In this document: piece after piece, positions 4,462-32,239 of the stretch
Layout: the number at the start of each line of letters is the position of its first letter
Position numbering within the stretch: the stretch's first letter is position 1
Source of the DNA: Polyangiaceae bacterium
GTDB taxonomy: Bacteria; Myxococcota_A; Polyangia; Polyangiales; Polyangiaceae
Reading direction: 5' to 3'
Assembly: GCA_023150915.1 (NCBI GenBank)
Contig: JAKLKA010000033.1
Location: 29,043-93,042, forward strand
DNA length: 64,000 bases
The notes under the pieces: generated by a model
The model's database searches: none
Told to the model about the DNA's origin: nothing
Seen by the model: the letters and a program-made list of their open reading frames with translations, nothing else
Program-made: the position numbers and the translations under genes

Positions 4462-5004
4462 TCAGCGCGGCGCGCGCAGCCGATCGACCAGGCCGCGGAG
4501 CGCCAGCAGGTAAGAGTCCGCTCCGAAGCCGCACACCCGGCCGACACAGGCGGGGGCCACGCACGACTTGTGCCGGAACGGCTCCCGCGCTTCGGGGTTC
4601 GTCAGGTGGACTTCGACGGCCGGTTGCGCTGCGCCGGCCAGCGAGTCGTAGAGCGCGTAGGACGTGTGCGTGAGGGCGCCCGGGTTGATCACGATCCCCG
4701 AAACGCCGTCGTCGTCGGCCGAGTTGATCCAGTCGATCAGCTGGCCTTCGTGGTTGCTCTGGCGGCAGATCAGCTGAACGCCCAGCTCGCGCGCCGCCGC
4801 CGACAGCCGCTCGTGGATCTGCGCCAGCGTGGTGGTGCCATAGACCTCGGGCTGGCGACGGCCCAACCGATCGAGGTTGGGCCCGCTCAGCACCAAGATG
4901 CGCTCGACCCGAGCGCCCAGCTTGCGGCGGCGAGGTGGCACGCGCGGCGCGGGCGAACGCCGCCCCTTGACCGCTGGTGCTCCTCGACGCGAGCGCGTCG
5001 TCAT
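4462..5004 (-). CDS. aroQ: Type II 3-dehydroquinate dehydratase
   Basis: ILVLSGPNLDRLGRRQPEVYGTTTLAQI...QSNHEGQLIDWIN...GIVINPGALTHTSYALYDSLA; start set at internal ATG (5004), not the long ORF start. Confidence 0.93.
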   Translation of the reverse strand: MTTRSRRGAPAVKGRRSPAPRVPPRRRKLGARVERILVLSGPNLDRLGRRQPEVYGTTTLAQIHERLSAAARELGVQLICRQSNHEGQLIDWINSADDDGVSGIVINPGALTHTSYALYDSLAGAAQPAVEVHLTNPEAREPFRHKSCVAPACVGRVCGFGADSYLLALRGLVDRLRAPR

Positions 5005-5009
5005 GCCGC

Positions 5010-5369
5010 TCAGCCCAGCTCTTCGACCAACTTGGGCGCCGCCACTCGCAGCAAGAAGCGGCCCTTGCCGAGGTTTCCGTCGGGCGACATGGTGATCGCG
5101 ACGAAATAGTTCTCGTTGAGCACGCGGATCAGCGTGACCATCTTCGCGCTCTTGAAGGCCACCTCGCGTGTGTCGCCCGCGTCGAGCATCTCGGAGGCGC
5201 GCTGGATGGCCTTGACCACCACGCTCACCTCGGCCCCCACGGTCTCGATGTCGAACGGCGAGTCGCCCTTGGCATAGCTCTCGAGCGGAATGCCTTCGAA
5301 GTCCATCAGAAGGCCGGCCATGCCGCCCTCCACCCCGTCGACCATGCCCTGCAAGGCCTGCTTGAACAT
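5010..5369 (-). CDS. Roadblock/LC7 domain protein (MglB-like)
   Basis: MFKQALQGMVDGVEGGMAGLLMDFEGIPLESYAKGDSPFDIETVGAEVSVVVKAIQRASEML...NENYFVAITMSPDGNLGKGRFLLRVAAPKL. Confidence 0.75.
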   Translation of the reverse strand: MFKQALQGMVDGVEGGMAGLLMDFEGIPLESYAKGDSPFDIETVGAEVSVVVKAIQRASEMLDAGDTREVAFKSAKMVTLIRVLNENYFVAITMSPDGNLGKGRFLLRVAAPKLVEELG

Positions 5370-25658: not shown

Positions 25659-27821
25659 ATGCGCGACATGACGACAAACGACTCAGGGGCTCGGCGCGCG
25701 GCGCGTGCGGGTCGCGCAACGCGGAGCCTCGGGGTCACGCTGGCCGTCGCTGTTGCCACGGCGTGCGCTGCGACGCCGCCGGAACCCCTGCCTGAAGGCG
25801 CCGCAGCAGTCGAAGCGACGGACGAGATCACGGCGCGCGTCGAGGCGCTCCGCGCTCGGTTCGTGACTGCGCGCGGGCCGACACCGACGGCGCTCTCGTC
25901 GTTCATCGGCCGGGGCACCGTGCAGCGGTTTGCGCGAAGCGGAGACGCGCTCGTGCCAGCCGGTGACGGCGCCGAGCCCCTTGCGCGCCAGGGGCTCGAC
26001 GTTCGCCTTCCCGTTCATGCCAACGGCGAGACGCGGCTTTCGGACCGCTCCAGCGGCGTGGCGGTACGTGTGCGTCTCGAAGGCGCGGGCACTTCGGCTC
26101 CAGCGGCGCTGGGCTCTGGAATCGTGGTTTACGAGCACGCAACGCCCGGCGGCGCAACCATCCTGGTGCGCGCCACGCGCACGGCGGTCGAAGACTATGT
26201 GGTGTTCGACGCGCGGCCAGAGCGCGAGGCGGTCGTGTACTCAGTGCAGCTCGAGCAGGTGGCAGGGCTGCGCCTGGTGGCGAGCACGCTCGAGCTGCTG
26301 GACGCCGAAGGCACGCCTCGGCTGCGGGTCGCGCCTCCAGAGATCGCGGACGCGAGCGGGCGGGTGCACGCGGCCACGCTCGAGGTCGACGGCTGCAAAG
26401 CGGACGTCAGCCCGGTGACGCCCTGGGGGCGCGCGGTCACGCCTCCGGGGTCGAGCGTCTGCGCGGTCCGAGTGCGGTGGGACCATGCGTCGGTCCAGTA
26501 CCCCGCGGTCCTCGACCCGAAGTGGTCCGCGACCTCCGCGATGGTCCAGCCTCGCAGGGGCCACTCGGCCGTGCTGATGCAAGACGGCCGGGTGCTGGTG
26601 ACGGGGATGCGCCAAGACTTGCACGGCGCACCGATCGTGAGCGAAGTGTTCGAGCCGGGCTCGCAGACCTGGGCGGTCACGTCGCCGCTGAACGTCCCGC
26701 GGTACCTCGCCCCAGGGGTGCTGCTCGACGACGGCAGAGTGCTGGTCGTGGGCGGAGTGTGCCCATGGAGCAGCTGCCCTTACCCCTATCTGCCGCAGGG
26801 GGAGCTGTACGACCCCAAGACCGGGGTGTGGCAGCCCGTGCCGGGGTCGCCCCAGCGCGGCGGCACGAGCGCGACCAAGTTGCTCGACGGTCGCGTCTTG
26901 GCAGTGAGCGGAACCGGCACGACCCAACCCGCCGGGTTACCGGAGGGCGGGGCCTACGTCTTCGACCCCGCGTCAAACGGGTGGAAGACCCTGCCTGACC
27001 TGCCCGACCAGTACTTGCAGCCGCCCGGACTGGGCGGACCCGGGATGGACCACACCGCGTCGCTGCTGCACGACGGTCGCGTGCTCGTCGTGGGGGGGTG
27101 GCGCACCAATGGCCCGGAGGGCGAACCCGACAAGGCGGTGCCAGCGGTGGCGGCCTTCGACCCCAAGACGGACACGTGGGCCATCGGCCCGCCCCTCCAC
27201 CAAGGGCGCCTTCGTCACGTTGCCCTGACGCTGCCCGATGGCAGGCTGCTGGTCGCCGGCGGGGATGCGACGATGTTCCAGCCGGTTCCCCTGGCAACGG
27301 GTGAGATCTTCGACCCGGCCACGAACACGTGGACCACGTTTCCGGCCACGCCTCGAAGCGCGTTTGCCGGGGCGCTGCGGCAGGACGGCACGGTTCTGCT
27401 GGCAGGTGGCGAGGCGGCGGTGCCCACCGCCGAGCTCATCGACCCAGCCACGCTCGAGAGCGTCCCCATGGAGATGCCCGGGGGGCGGTATGGTCACACG
27501 GCCACCGCCCTGGCCGACGGGCGCGCCCTCGTGGCCGGCGGTTATCAACTGATCCCCGACGGCGAAGAGCTGGCCGAGCCCTCCAGCCTGGTTCTCAGCA
27601 ACGAACCGCTCCATCCCCCCGTTCCCGACGCGGGCACCGGGGGCGTCGCGGGTGCCGCCGGCGCGGCCGGCCACGCTGCGGCTGCACCGGATGACCAGGG
27701 CGGCTGTGGCTGTCGGGTGGCAGGGCCAGCGCAACAGCGCCAGGCGCCGTGGGCGCTCGCCGCGGCGCTGGCGCTCTGGGTGTTTCACCGCCGAGGCGGT
27801 GGGAAGAAGGCAACTACATGA
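25659..27821 (+). CDS. Kelch/galactose-oxidase-like beta-propeller surface protein with MYXO-CTERM-like tail
   Basis: N-terminal signal/lipobox-like VAVATACAATPP; YPAVLDPKWSATSAMVQPRRGHSAVLMQDGRVLVTG and further kelch blades (LLDDGRVLVVGG, LLHDGRVLVVGG, LPDGRLLVAGG, ALADGRALVAGG); C-term GGCGCRVAGPAQQRQAPWALAAALALWVFHRRGGG. Confidence 0.85.
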   Translation: MRDMTTNDSGARRAARAGRATRSLGVTLAVAVATACAATPPEPLPEGAAAVEATDEITARVEALRARFVTARGPTPTALSSFIGRGTVQRFARSGDALVPAGDGAEPLARQGLDVRLPVHANGETRLSDRSSGVAVRVRLEGAGTSAPAALGSGIVVYEHATPGGATILVRATRTAVEDYVVFDARPEREAVVYSVQLEQVAGLRLVASTLELLDAEGTPRLRVAPPEIADASGRVHAATLEVDGCKADVSPVTPWGRAVTPPGSSVCAVRVRWDHASVQYPAVLDPKWSATSAMVQPRRGHSAVLMQDGRVLVTGMRQDLHGAPIVSEVFEPGSQTWAVTSPLNVPRYLAPGVLLDDGRVLVVGGVCPWSSCPYPYLPQGELYDPKTGVWQPVPGSPQRGGTSATKLLDGRVLAVSGTGTTQPAGLPEGGAYVFDPASNGWKTLPDLPDQYLQPPGLGGPGMDHTASLLHDGRVLVVGGWRTNGPEGEPDKAVPAVAAFDPKTDTWAIGPPLHQGRLRHVALTLPDGRLLVAGGDATMFQPVPLATGEIFDPATNTWTTFPATPRSAFAGALRQDGTVLLAGGEAAVPTAELIDPATLESVPMEMPGGRYGHTATALADGRALVAGGYQLIPDGEELAEPSSLVLSNEPLHPPVPDAGTGGVAGAAGAAGHAAAAPDDQGGCGCRVAGPAQQRQAPWALAAALALWVFHRRGGGKKATT

Positions 27822-28252
27822 TGGGCAACAGATCCGGTCCGCTCGCGAAAAAGTGGTGGGTGCTGCTCGTGGGCGTCGCAGCAGGCGTCGTGGCTTGTGC
27901 GAAAGATGACGGCGAGGCCACTCCGAGGGCACCGGCCGACGCCATACCCGCGGCCGTGGCCATCTCGGGCTCCGAGGTCGAGCTGGGGGTGTATCTCGGC
28001 CCGGCGGTTCTGCATCGCGAAATGCGTCCAAAGATCATAGACGCAAACCGAAAGGCGGCGTGCGAGGGGTTCTGCGGTCCCGATGAGTACCCGTTTGCCT
28101 CGACCGTGGAGGGTGGTGCGGGCGCGCAGGTGACCGCAGTCCCGTTGGCGGAGCAGCGCATCCAGGGAGGCGTGATGTCGCAGTTCTACCGGCAGCATGG
28201 CATCAAGCAGGGAGATGCCTTTAGAGTGTTCGTCAAGAAGAACAAGGACTGA
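27818..28252 (+). CDS. Lipoprotein with NucA/NucB-type DNase domain (candidate toxin)
   Basis: WWVLLVGVAAGVVACAKDDGE lipobox; CGPDEYPFASTVEGGAGAQVTAVPLAEQRIQGGVMSQFYRQHGIKQGDAFRVFV = DEYPFAST.EGG and QGG..S.FY of NucA/NucB; ATG overlaps upstream TGA. Confidence 0.85.
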   Translation: MMGNRSGPLAKKWWVLLVGVAAGVVACAKDDGEATPRAPADAIPAAVAISGSEVELGVYLGPAVLHREMRPKIIDANRKAACEGFCGPDEYPFASTVEGGAGAQVTAVPLAEQRIQGGVMSQFYRQHGIKQGDAFRVFVKKNKD

Positions 28253-28254
28253 GG

Positions 28255-28566
28255 ATGGGACTGCTCGCACGCGCCAAGGTGATCCCGTACAACGCCCAGG
28301 TGGAGTTGAGTGATCTGAACGCGACCGACTACCCGCAATGGCGGACCGGGCACGAGGCGGCTGTGGCACTGGCTGACTGCGTCGCAGTAGCGACGCAAGG
28401 CGATGAGGCAGGAAAGGTGGTCGTTGAGATCTGGTACGGCGAACTTCAACTCGACGACCCCGCCATTCGGGAGCCGGTCTTCGAAGCGGGTCGGTATCAT
28501 CTGCGAGTTTTCACCTCGCCGGTGGGAGCGCCGCCCGCACGCGTGTACTTCCTGCTGAGTTCGTAG
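28255..28566 (+). CDS. Small cytosolic-looking protein, putative cognate immunity to the nuclease
   Basis: 103 aa, no signal peptide, starts 2 nt after the nuclease stop; no family recognised. Confidence 0.5.
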   Translation: MGLLARAKVIPYNAQVELSDLNATDYPQWRTGHEAAVALADCVAVATQGDEAGKVVVEIWYGELQLDDPAIREPVFEAGRYHLRVFTSPVGAPPARVYFLLSS

Positions 28567-29829: not shown

Positions 29830-31302
29830 CTACGCCCGCCGCAGCACGAACAACCGGGCCGCCGGCGCCTGGGCGGGACCGGGGAAGGTGCTGGCGTGAT
29901 CCTCGACGATCTCGAACGCGCTTCCGAAGAGGCGCGCCAGCGTCTCGGCGGTGTGGGGCATCGTGCCGTGCCGATCACCCTCTTCGGTGGCGTGGGTCTT
30001 GAGCAGCAAGTGTCCGCCGGGTGCCAGCAGCGTGGCCAGGTTCTCGGCATAGCGGGCGGCGGCGTCGGGGGTGAGCAGGTGCAAGCACCCGCGATCGACC
30101 GCGATGTCGAACGAGCTGCGGCGGCGGGTGTTCGTGATGTCGTCTTCCAACCAGAGCACCGAAAGCTCGGGGGAGCGCCGCCGAGCGTCTTCCAGGGCAC
30201 GCCCCGATAGGTCGGTGGCCACCACCCGGTGTCCGCGCTCGGCAGCGGCCACGGCCATGGTGCCGAGCCCCGTCCCGATGTCGAGCACCAAGGCGTGACG
30301 GGGCGCGAGGCGCTCGAACGACGCGAGCAGGTCGTCGTCGACGCGGTCGGTGTACCAGGGCAGACGCTCGGGGCGCTCGGAGGCGTACACCTGATCCCAC
30401 TCGGCGCCGCTCCGCGGGGTGACGCGCGTGCCTGCGCGGCGGAGCGCCAGCGCGGTCTCGAGCATCTGCACCACCACCTCGATCGGCGGCGCCGGGCCCA
30501 GCTTGCGCGGGCGATCGAGCGGCGGGTCGGCGACCTCGATGCCGAACGACGGATGAATGACGTGCAGGCCGTCCCGGGCCAGCTGCTCGATGTTGCGCTG
30601 CACCGCCGCGCGGGCGTACATGCCCGCGTTCATCGAGGGCGCGATGATGACCGGCGCCGCGGTGGCGAGCGCGACGGCGGAGACGATCGAGTCGAAGTTT
30701 CCGGTGGCGAGCCGGGACAGCGTGGTTGCCGTCGCCGGCCAGACCAGCACCGCGTCGGCCCAGGCAGCCAGGTCGATGTGCGGCACCGCCGTCTCGCCTT
30801 CGTACAAGTCCTGGGCCACCGGGCGATGCACCAGGCGCTCGAGGGCGTAGGCACTGACGAAGCGGAGCGCATTCTTGGTGGCCGCCACGCGCACCTCGAA
30901 ACCGCGATCGAGCAGCCGAGCGACCATCGCCGGCGCGTGCATCGCCGCCACCCCGCCGGCCAGGCACAAGACGACGCGATCGTGGCGCGGCGGCGACGCC
31001 GGCGCGGCGGGGGCGCTGTCGGGCTCGAACCGCTCGATGGCTCCGGCGTCGAGCAAGAGGCCGAGCAGCTGATCGACGACGCTGCCTTCGCCAAGCGCCG
31101 CGCCACTGAGCGCCTCCACGTGTGCCACGACCTCTCGGGGCGACCGCGGCTGCAGCAGAAAGCCGAGCACCACCCGTGCGAGCTGGGCCGACTCGGCGTG
31201 CAGCTGGTGCGCGCGACCGTCGGGCCCGAGCAGGACGGTCGTGTCCCCGGCGTCGTAGATGCGCGCCACGCGCGCGCGCCGCAGGCGGGCGGTTTCGGAC
31301 AT
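29830..31302 (-). CDS. PqqD-like / HFCD flavoprotein (CoaC/EpiD-like) / SAM methyltransferase fusion
   Basis: N-term PqqD-like (PDGRAHQLHAESAQLARVVLGFLLQPRSPREVVAHVEAL...VVDQLLGLLLDAGAIERF); HFCD VPHIDLAAWADAVLVWPATATTLSRLATGNFDSIVSAVALATAAPVIIAPSMNAGMYARAAVQRNIEQL; MT ALVLDIGTGLGTMAVAAAERGHRVVATDLS. Confidence 0.82.
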   Translation of the reverse strand: MSETARLRRARVARIYDAGDTTVLLGPDGRAHQLHAESAQLARVVLGFLLQPRSPREVVAHVEALSGAALGEGSVVDQLLGLLLDAGAIERFEPDSAPAAPASPPRHDRVVLCLAGGVAAMHAPAMVARLLDRGFEVRVAATKNALRFVSAYALERLVHRPVAQDLYEGETAVPHIDLAAWADAVLVWPATATTLSRLATGNFDSIVSAVALATAAPVIIAPSMNAGMYARAAVQRNIEQLARDGLHVIHPSFGIEVADPPLDRPRKLGPAPPIEVVVQMLETALALRRAGTRVTPRSGAEWDQVYASERPERLPWYTDRVDDDLLASFERLAPRHALVLDIGTGLGTMAVAAAERGHRVVATDLSGRALEDARRRSPELSVLWLEDDITNTRRRSSFDIAVDRGCLHLLTPDAAARYAENLATLLAPGGHLLLKTHATEEGDRHGTMPHTAETLARLFGSAFEIVEDHASTFPGPAQAPAARLFVLRRA

Positions 31303-31345
31303 CGTCCCGGATTCTCGCGGTCCAGACCGGACCGCCGTCAGGCTA

Positions 31346-31597
31346 TCAACTACTGCCGCCCGTCTTACAGCCGCCCGAGCTGGTCTTGTAGCAATCCTTG
31401 GTCGGCCCGCACGTGGTCTTGCCCTGGTCGTCCTTGCACGGCTCGCAGTCGCCGGACGGAAGCTCCGAACAGGCGACCACCGCGCTCGTGTTCTTCTGCG
31501 TCTCGTCGTCGTCGCCGCCGCACGCCAGCACCGCCGCAAAGGTGGTCACCGAGAGAGCGGTGGGTAGAAGCAACTCCCGCACGATGGGTCGAGCCAT
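31346..31597 (-). CDS. Small Cys-rich lipoprotein
   Basis: MARPIVRELLLPTALSVTTFAAVLACGGDDDETQKNTSAVVACSELPSGDCEPCKDDQGKTTCGPTKDCYKTSSGGCKTGGSS; ends about 43 nt before the fusion-enzyme start, same strand. Confidence 0.65.
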   Translation of the reverse strand: MARPIVRELLLPTALSVTTFAAVLACGGDDDETQKNTSAVVACSELPSGDCEPCKDDQGKTTCGPTKDCYKTSSGGCKTGGSS

Positions 31598-31690: not shown

Positions 31691-32239
31691 ATGGGCCGTT
31701 GGGTCGCGCTTCTGGCTTTTCTCGTGTGTGTTCCCAGCTGTAGCAGTGGGGAGCGCAGCGCCGGCGGCGAGCTGCGGTCGCTCCCCGAGCTCGAGCTCTG
31801 GGGACACCTTCGCCACGATCCCAGCGGGCTCGCGACCGCCGCGACGCCCGGACCGCTGGGCTTCGACGCGATCGGGCAGAGCGCCCCGCGCCCTCACGCG
31901 CTGATCCACGTCTCGGGGTTCACCTGAAGCGCTTGCAAGGCAGCGGCCCGGGACATGGCCCTGGACTACCCGACCTACGCCGACAAGGCGATCTTCGTCG
32001 ATCTCCTGGCCGAAGGCGCCGACCCCACCGAACCCGCGACCCCGGTGGAGCTCGAGGCCTGGATCGTGGATCGCGAGATCCCGTTCACGACCGCCGTCGA
32101 TCTCCCGGGCGCCGGCCAGCGCATCTTGAAGGACTTCTCGCCGATCGAGAGCACCTTCTTGGTCGAGCTCGGCAGCATGACGATCGTGGAACACGCCCGG
32201 GCGCCGACCACGCTCTATCCGGCGCTCGATGCGCTGTGA
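31691..32239 (+). CDS. Thioredoxin-like (TlpA-like) lipoprotein, candidate selenoprotein with UxxC motif (TGA at 31925-31927 read as Sec)
   Basis: ORFs ending 31927 and starting 31955 are in the same frame; reading through the single TGA gives MGRWVALLAFLVCVPSCSSGE...PHALIHVSGFT-U-SACKAAARDMALDYPTYADKAIFVDLLAEG...IPFTTAVDLPG...ESTFLVELGSMTIVEHA. Confidence 0.8.
31941..31963 (+). promoter_or_regulatory. Candidate bacterial SECIS hairpin
   Basis: CAG-(c)-GGCC [CGGGACAU] GGCC-CUG: 7 bp with one bulge, 8-nt apical loop with G at positions 2-4, 13 nt after the TGA. Confidence 0.6.

Follow-up and report, generated by a model that had tools for sequence, protein, structure and literature searches.

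What is modified by an enzyme that joins a RiPP recognition element (RRE), an HFCD flavoprotein and a methyltransferase in one chain, and how? Such an enzyme is encoded in the window, the whole 64,000-nucleotide stretch of Polyangiaceae DNA analyzed here. A first-pass annotation had expected it to decarboxylate a C-terminal Cys. We find that the domain architecture, the RRE fold, the association with a small partner protein, the encoding of selenocysteine (Sec) at the partner's C-terminus and the Sec machinery of the host genomes are well supported by sequence-level evidence. As the enzyme pairs with proteins that apparently end in Sec, its probable action is to cut off the end of this residue and to add a methyl group to the selenium.

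The enzyme and its domains lie as follows.

29830..31302, minus strand: RRE-HFCD-methyltransferase enzyme, 490 aa (open frame and domain profile matches)
31018..31302, minus strand: N-terminal domain, aa 1-95, predicted PqqD/RRE fold (AlphaFold2, Foldseek, weak PqqD profile matches in homologues)
30433..30990, minus strand: HFCD flavoprotein domain, about aa 105-290 (profile match, structural match to TvaF 6jls, invariant residues)
29833..30417, minus strand: class I SAM methyltransferase domain, about aa 296-490, TPMT/thiol-methyltransferase-like (profiles, structure matches)

Within the open frame of 490 codons, Pfam places Flavoprotein (PF02441) on residues 109-242 (E=8.8e-25) and Methyltransf_25 on residues 339-430 (E=2.5e-15), with TPMT also matched (1e-9). 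Together with NCBIfam, this puts the flavoprotein region at about aa 109-250 and the class I methyltransferase region at about 300-470. The nearest HFCD structure to the full enzyme model is TvaF (6jls; target-normalised TM 0.89), also the nearest in sequence, and the NCBIfam profile for CypD, a RiPP Cys decarboxylase, matches at 2.1e-8. His175 and the M224, N225 and M228 of PSMNAGM are invariant among orthologues, in which the CoaC-type clamp is replaced by a nearly invariant G-x-E-V-A-x-x-P-x-x-R. Ecm18 (4nec) and halide/thiol methyltransferases are among the nearest methyltransferase structures, and the fused domain is nearest to thiol-type methyltransferases.

The N-terminus was recognized by its fold. 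Residues 1-95 alone gave no match in Pfam, and a sequence-only profile search against the PDB returned nothing useful, whereas a fold search succeeded. AlphaFold2, with 16 homologues as input, predicted a bbb(b)aaa arrangement (pLDDT 90.9, pTM 0.81) whose top Foldseek matches in the PDB were nearly all RREs, led by TbiB1-leader, TruD and TbtB; further RRE matches were TigE, MadB, MccB, PqqD, ThcOx and the PbtF RRE. By profile, the N-termini of three homologues match PqqD (best E 1.5e-3) and those of two match PqqD_rel_X (best 3.5e-3). Because the best E in the Foldseek search is only 1.5e-3, we describe the RRE likeness as similarity at the level of the fold; as such, a PqqD-like winged-helix/RRE fold for residues 1-95 is a well-supported prediction. 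The first-pass annotation had named a PqqD-like N-terminus, a CoaC/EpiD-type flavoprotein core and a methyltransferase in cis, and had suggested modeling the first 90 or so residues with AlphaFold; all three assignments hold, and the suggested model gave the RRE fold.

Orthologues (E<=1e-68) are present in 29 of 318 Polyangia genomes, while sampled genomes of other Myxococcota classes returned CoaBC-like matches only. Full-length orthologues across Polyangia keep the same three-domain order, so the architecture is not a chance fusion. A few lack the methyltransferase (L035 and L071, the latter also frameshifted). Comparing neighborhoods across genera, we saw no conserved operon gene apart from one small gene, mostly immediately upstream of the enzyme; no conserved protease or exporter gene was seen nearby, and no dehydratase, cyclase or pantothenate genes were recognised there. 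In the window, this small gene (31346-31597 on the minus strand, to the first stop) directly precedes the enzyme gene. It is the adjacent Cys-rich protein pointed out in the first-pass annotation, now established as a partner conserved across genera.

31343..31597, minus strand: small lipoprotein-like partner from start codon to second stop, ending ...KTGGSS-Sec* (putative selenoprotein gene)
31544..31579, minus strand: RELLLPTALSVT, the motif conserved at the partner's N-terminus (leave-one-genus-out HMM E=4e-8)

The N-termini of partner proteins are hydrophobic and contain the motif R-x-L-x-[VIL]-P-A-x-L-A-[VI]-[ST]; beyond this, the sequences are highly variable. Leave-one-genus-out profiles recovered 8 of 10 held-out partner groups, at E values of 4e-8 to 7e-3 compared with at least 0.03 for non-partners. 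The two groups missed, each taken alone, were the Cys-type partners of g21 and those of g87; these were assigned by position, g87 also by its tandem stop and hairpin. In a whole-genome motif search the top matches adjoin the enzyme in most genomes, and one partner (P0002) is single-copy in its genome. No Pfam or NCBIfam family matched the scanned partners, save for YARHG in two unlinked ones. The motif may be the segment bound by the RRE, an export signal or both; much of this N-terminal segment would also pass for a lipoprotein or Sec signal, and export may account for part of its conservation. The motif and the tandem-stop pattern were spotted before they were tested, which brings in some hindsight, and unlinked partners found through their SECIS are a more independent check.

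The end of the partner gene carries three elements.

31346..31348, minus strand: TGA predicted to be read as Sec, the partner's last residue (the first stop is TGA in 19/19 Sec-type partners)
31343..31345, minus strand: TAG, the true stop, straight after the Sec codon (tandem stop)
31317..31335, minus strand: predicted bacterial SECIS hairpin GCGGUCC-GGUCU-GGACCGC, 3' of the partner (covariation and bSECIS limits)

In all 19 Sec-type partner genes, TGA is followed with no gap by TAG, TGA or TAA, an arrangement seen in only 3 of 261 control genes (other genes from the same loci, partner genes excluded). Then comes the hairpin, whose stem arms in the window lie at 31335-31329 and 31323-31317. 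Its loop is GGUC or GGUCU among Sec-type partners, with exceptions in G424 (CGGGC or CGUGC). Across 17 distinct hairpin sequences, 99.2% of cells are paired, 6 of the 7 base pairs show compensatory changes, and the covariation score is 0.653 compared with 0.05-0.13 in slid controls. The bacterial SECIS model asks for a loop of 3-9 nt with a G in its first two positions, a stem of 4-16 bp, a spacing of 16-37 nt and an MFE <= -7.5 (PMC13188914). With these limits narrowed to a 7-bp stem, 18/19 partners passed, their hairpins starting 16-18 nt past the TGA, and the lone failure has a 6-bp stem; by the same strict test, 9 of 203 TGA-ending controls passed, and one of these nine is in fact a partner gene with a different start assigned.

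In the window genome, contig C272 carries selA, selB and tRNA-Sec together. SelB scores above cut-off in 27/29 enzyme genomes versus 136/318 overall (hypergeometric 3.5e-9, relatedness not corrected). Of the two enzyme genomes below that cut-off, G424 encodes SelA as well as tRNA-Sec, and G569, at 65% completeness, a partial SelA. Where the enzyme lacks its methyltransferase (L035, L071), the adjoining partner ends in ...GAGCC* and has no SECIS hairpin, which by sequence makes it the expected Cys counterpart of the Sec partners. This suggests that the methyltransferase goes with selenium, in a single genus in which one of the two enzymes is frameshifted. The features that mark bacterial selenoproteins are thus found together: a UGA with a bSECIS, SelA, SelB and tRNA-Sec in the host and, in one genus, a Cys homologue. 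Because of the tandem stops, the SECIS hairpin and the Sec machinery, the partners are best read as selenoproteins ending in Sec (...SSU*), and it is well supported that their predicted last residue is encoded by a TGA that resembles a stop codon. The C-terminal Cys substrate of the first-pass annotation accordingly survives only at the methyltransferase-less loci and gives way to Sec for the methyltransferase-containing orthologues.

Not every partner is linked to its enzyme. We searched 24 enzyme genomes with a covariance model of the partner 3' element (R1) and found in-frame, unlinked proteins with a predicted C-terminal Sec in G041, G061, G062, G063, G264, G444, G539 and G581. Most begin with a lipoprotein-like signal or an N-terminal motif of the LP type, and most genomes without an adjacent partner carry such proteins. 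In G065, an enzyme genome, no partner was found. For the f6 genomes, among others, we infer the pairing, as enzyme and partner lie apart. The first-pass annotation had held that orthologues with no small Cys peptide nearby and with pantothenate genes would count against its reading. About half of the lineages have no such peptide near the enzyme, and no neighboring pantothenate genes were recognised; the peptide-less loci do not refute a peptide substrate, because most of these genomes encode C-terminal-Sec proteins elsewhere. Across 50 genomes without a detected enzyme, matches to the 3' element at E<=0.02 number just three (G060, G465 and G251). The match in G060 (L198; genome 76% complete) is a clear partner-like C-terminal-Sec gene, and that in G465 (L197) is a gene of C-terminal-Sec type whose end resembles the G527 protein.

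A YARHG-domain protein is the C-terminal-Sec protein in G539 and G176. At L184 571-1500 and L192 328-1500, from two distant genera, YARHG-domain proteins have a TGA-TGA end and a SECIS hairpin like that of the partners, which would mean that larger proteins, too, can have Sec at the C-terminus.

Other likely selenoproteins lie near the enzyme. Divergent to the partner, at 31691-32239 on the plus strand of the window, two ORFs are joined by an in-frame TGA (31925-31927). The read-through product, ...LIHVSGFT-U-SACKAAARDMALDYPTYADK..., has a UxxC redox-type motif and a lipoprotein-like signal and gave no match in Pfam; L001, L002 and L033 share this split reading. An adjoining Trx-like selenoprotein was rejected as a component of the system, as we saw it nowhere outside the window genus and G112. 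At L071 (about 4560-5229, plus strand), a peroxiredoxin-like protein has a single stop in FYRGHW-*-PFCRKQ, a UxxC if read as Sec; it adjoins the frameshifted, methyltransferase-less enzyme, so that here, too, the enzyme has a likely redox selenoprotein as neighbor. Elsewhere in the window are a secreted protein resembling the DNase NucA/NucB (27818-28566, plus strand; PF14040, 2.4e-17) with a small ORF directly 3' that is possibly its inhibitor, and a Kelch-repeat protein (25659-27821, plus strand) with a MYXO-CTERM-like C-terminal stretch (TIGR03901, just above cut-off).

What, then, might the enzyme do to its partner? As a family, HFCDs turn a C-terminal Cys into an enethiol by oxidation of its thiol and loss of CO2; TsaF/TvaF are discussed in PMC8153245. 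We propose that the enzyme and the small upstream gene form a two-gene system. The partner would be made with an N-terminal hydrophobic signal or leader, its UGA being recoded through the SECIS in the 3' UTR to place Sec as the very last residue. The RRE domain would dock on the partner, probably at the conserved N-terminal motif, and the FMN-dependent HFCD would oxidatively decarboxylate the free C-terminal Sec to an enselenol, much as C-terminal cysteine is treated by EpiD and TvaF. Its selenium would then be capped by the fused methyltransferase of thiol type, so that the exported protein, lipoprotein-like in most cases, would end in a methylselenovinyl amide. We infer the binding site, the reaction, the order of steps, the Se-methylation and the final fate from the domains and the partner's predicted end. 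EpiD favors hydrophobic residues before its C-terminal Cys. The residues preceding Sec vary among partners; many have a hydrophobic residue there, recalling that preference, and the window partner (GGSS-U) does not. This mismatch weighs against the model, as do the enzyme genome G065, with no partner found, and the C-terminal-Sec genes of G060 and G465, where no enzyme was detected. On balance, we think it likely that the whole model is correct, with one enzyme binding the partner through its RRE, decarboxylating Sec and methylating the selenium. To the broader reading, a dedicated system for modifying encoded C-terminal Sec in which an RRE-guided decarboxylase and Se-methyltransferase sets methylselenovinyl groups on varied exported proteins, we give an even chance; its proposed substrates would range over small lipoproteins, Cys-rich proteins and a YARHG-domain protein.

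The partners could end in Sec and the enzyme still act otherwise, with the HFCD handling the selenol as a redox module based on flavin, or with only the methyltransferase active and the HFCD structural. The proposed chemistry draws its support from sequence, the residues before Sec are variable, and the HFCD clamp region (residues 252-268) is of low confidence in the enzyme model, all of which leave room for this. However, the HFCD His/Asn motif is invariant in all orthologues, the closest structures are cysteine decarboxylases, and the swap between Sec and Cys keeps the thiol or selenol exactly at the chain end, as an HFCD needs; we consider such other chemistry unlikely. Sec itself is at stake if the TGA is an ordinary stop and the enzyme acts on a partner Cys made C-terminal by proteolysis. 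Partners do have a Cys after the hydrophobic stretch, and a C-terminal Cys is seen at the methyltransferase-less loci. We nevertheless rejected the former as the decarboxylation site, as it needs proteolysis and the tandem stops and SECIS supply the terminal residue directly. With no conserved protease gene seen near the enzyme, and with a covarying hairpin at fixed distance and complete Sec machinery, we regard a cysteine system as very unlikely.

More improbable still is a reading in which the hairpin and the double stop have no role in Sec insertion and serve as a commonplace translational signal or terminator. At many loci they do sit between tightly spaced genes, but they recur at unlinked genes, the hairpin has no T-run, its loop sequence, 16-18 nt spacing and stem covariation fit a bSECIS, and SelB is enriched in the enzyme genomes, with relatedness not corrected for. 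We can hardly credit a place for the enzyme in central metabolism, as a CoaC-like paralogue that decarboxylates phosphopantothenoylcysteine: CoaBC is the best NCBIfam match over the HFCD part (7.5e-43), but it is confined to the CoaC half of the profile and under its cut-off, the CoaB ligase half is missing, as the first-pass annotation had pointed out, an RRE and a methyltransferase are fused to the HFCD, no pantothenate genes were recognised nearby, and a separate CoaBC-like gene exists in the window genome (G000, contig C185) and in nearly all relatives.

Our preferred reading, Sec decarboxylation and Se-methylation of a bound partner, has relatives in several known systems. Our searches of the open-access literature, Pfam and NCBIfam brought up neither an HFCD that acts on Sec, nor a fusion of RRE, HFCD and methyltransferase, nor any selenoprotein whose chain stops right at Sec and that has an enzyme dedicated to it. 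We know of no earlier case of an RRE fused to an HFCD. Ordinary annotation cuts one residue off C-terminal-Sec proteins, so such a class stays hidden; it would comprise selenoproteins with Sec as the final residue and a SECIS entirely within the 3' untranslated region. UXX-star and related short selenoproteins are listed in PMC13188914; judged by name, the UXX-star types are small with Sec near the C-terminus, whereas nothing follows Sec in the partners here. Like CoaBC, the enzyme has an HFCD domain, and unlike it, has no CoaB half and an extra RRE and methyltransferase. The N-terminal 95 residues are predicted to share the fold of RREs such as PqqD, TbiB1, TruD and MccB, one difference being that the candidate target motif here lies within a hydrophobic, signal-like segment. 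By its title, a 2021 paper of Lewis et al., reference 90 of PMC13188914, reportedly concerns radical SAM enzymes that make thio(seleno)oxazole RiPPs; selenium RiPP chemistry would be shared, with radical SAM there and an HFCD, a methyltransferase and a terminal Sec here. Closest are the peptidyl-cysteine decarboxylases TvaF, EpiD and MrsD of RiPP AviCys pathways, which have the same HFCD fold, His and PxMN motif and a peptide partner. They differ in that our enzyme has a fused RRE and methyltransferase and no dehydratase or cyclase gene recognised nearby, and its partner is an exported, lipoprotein-like protein predicted to end in Sec rather than a lanthipeptide or thioamitide precursor. The separate enzyme domains are all of known kinds, and what appears to be new is the pairing of such an enzyme with an encoded terminal Sec: a likely selenocysteine decarboxylase and Se-methyltransferase in a single chain, which would join RiPP-type peptide modification and selenoproteins, two fields barely in contact.
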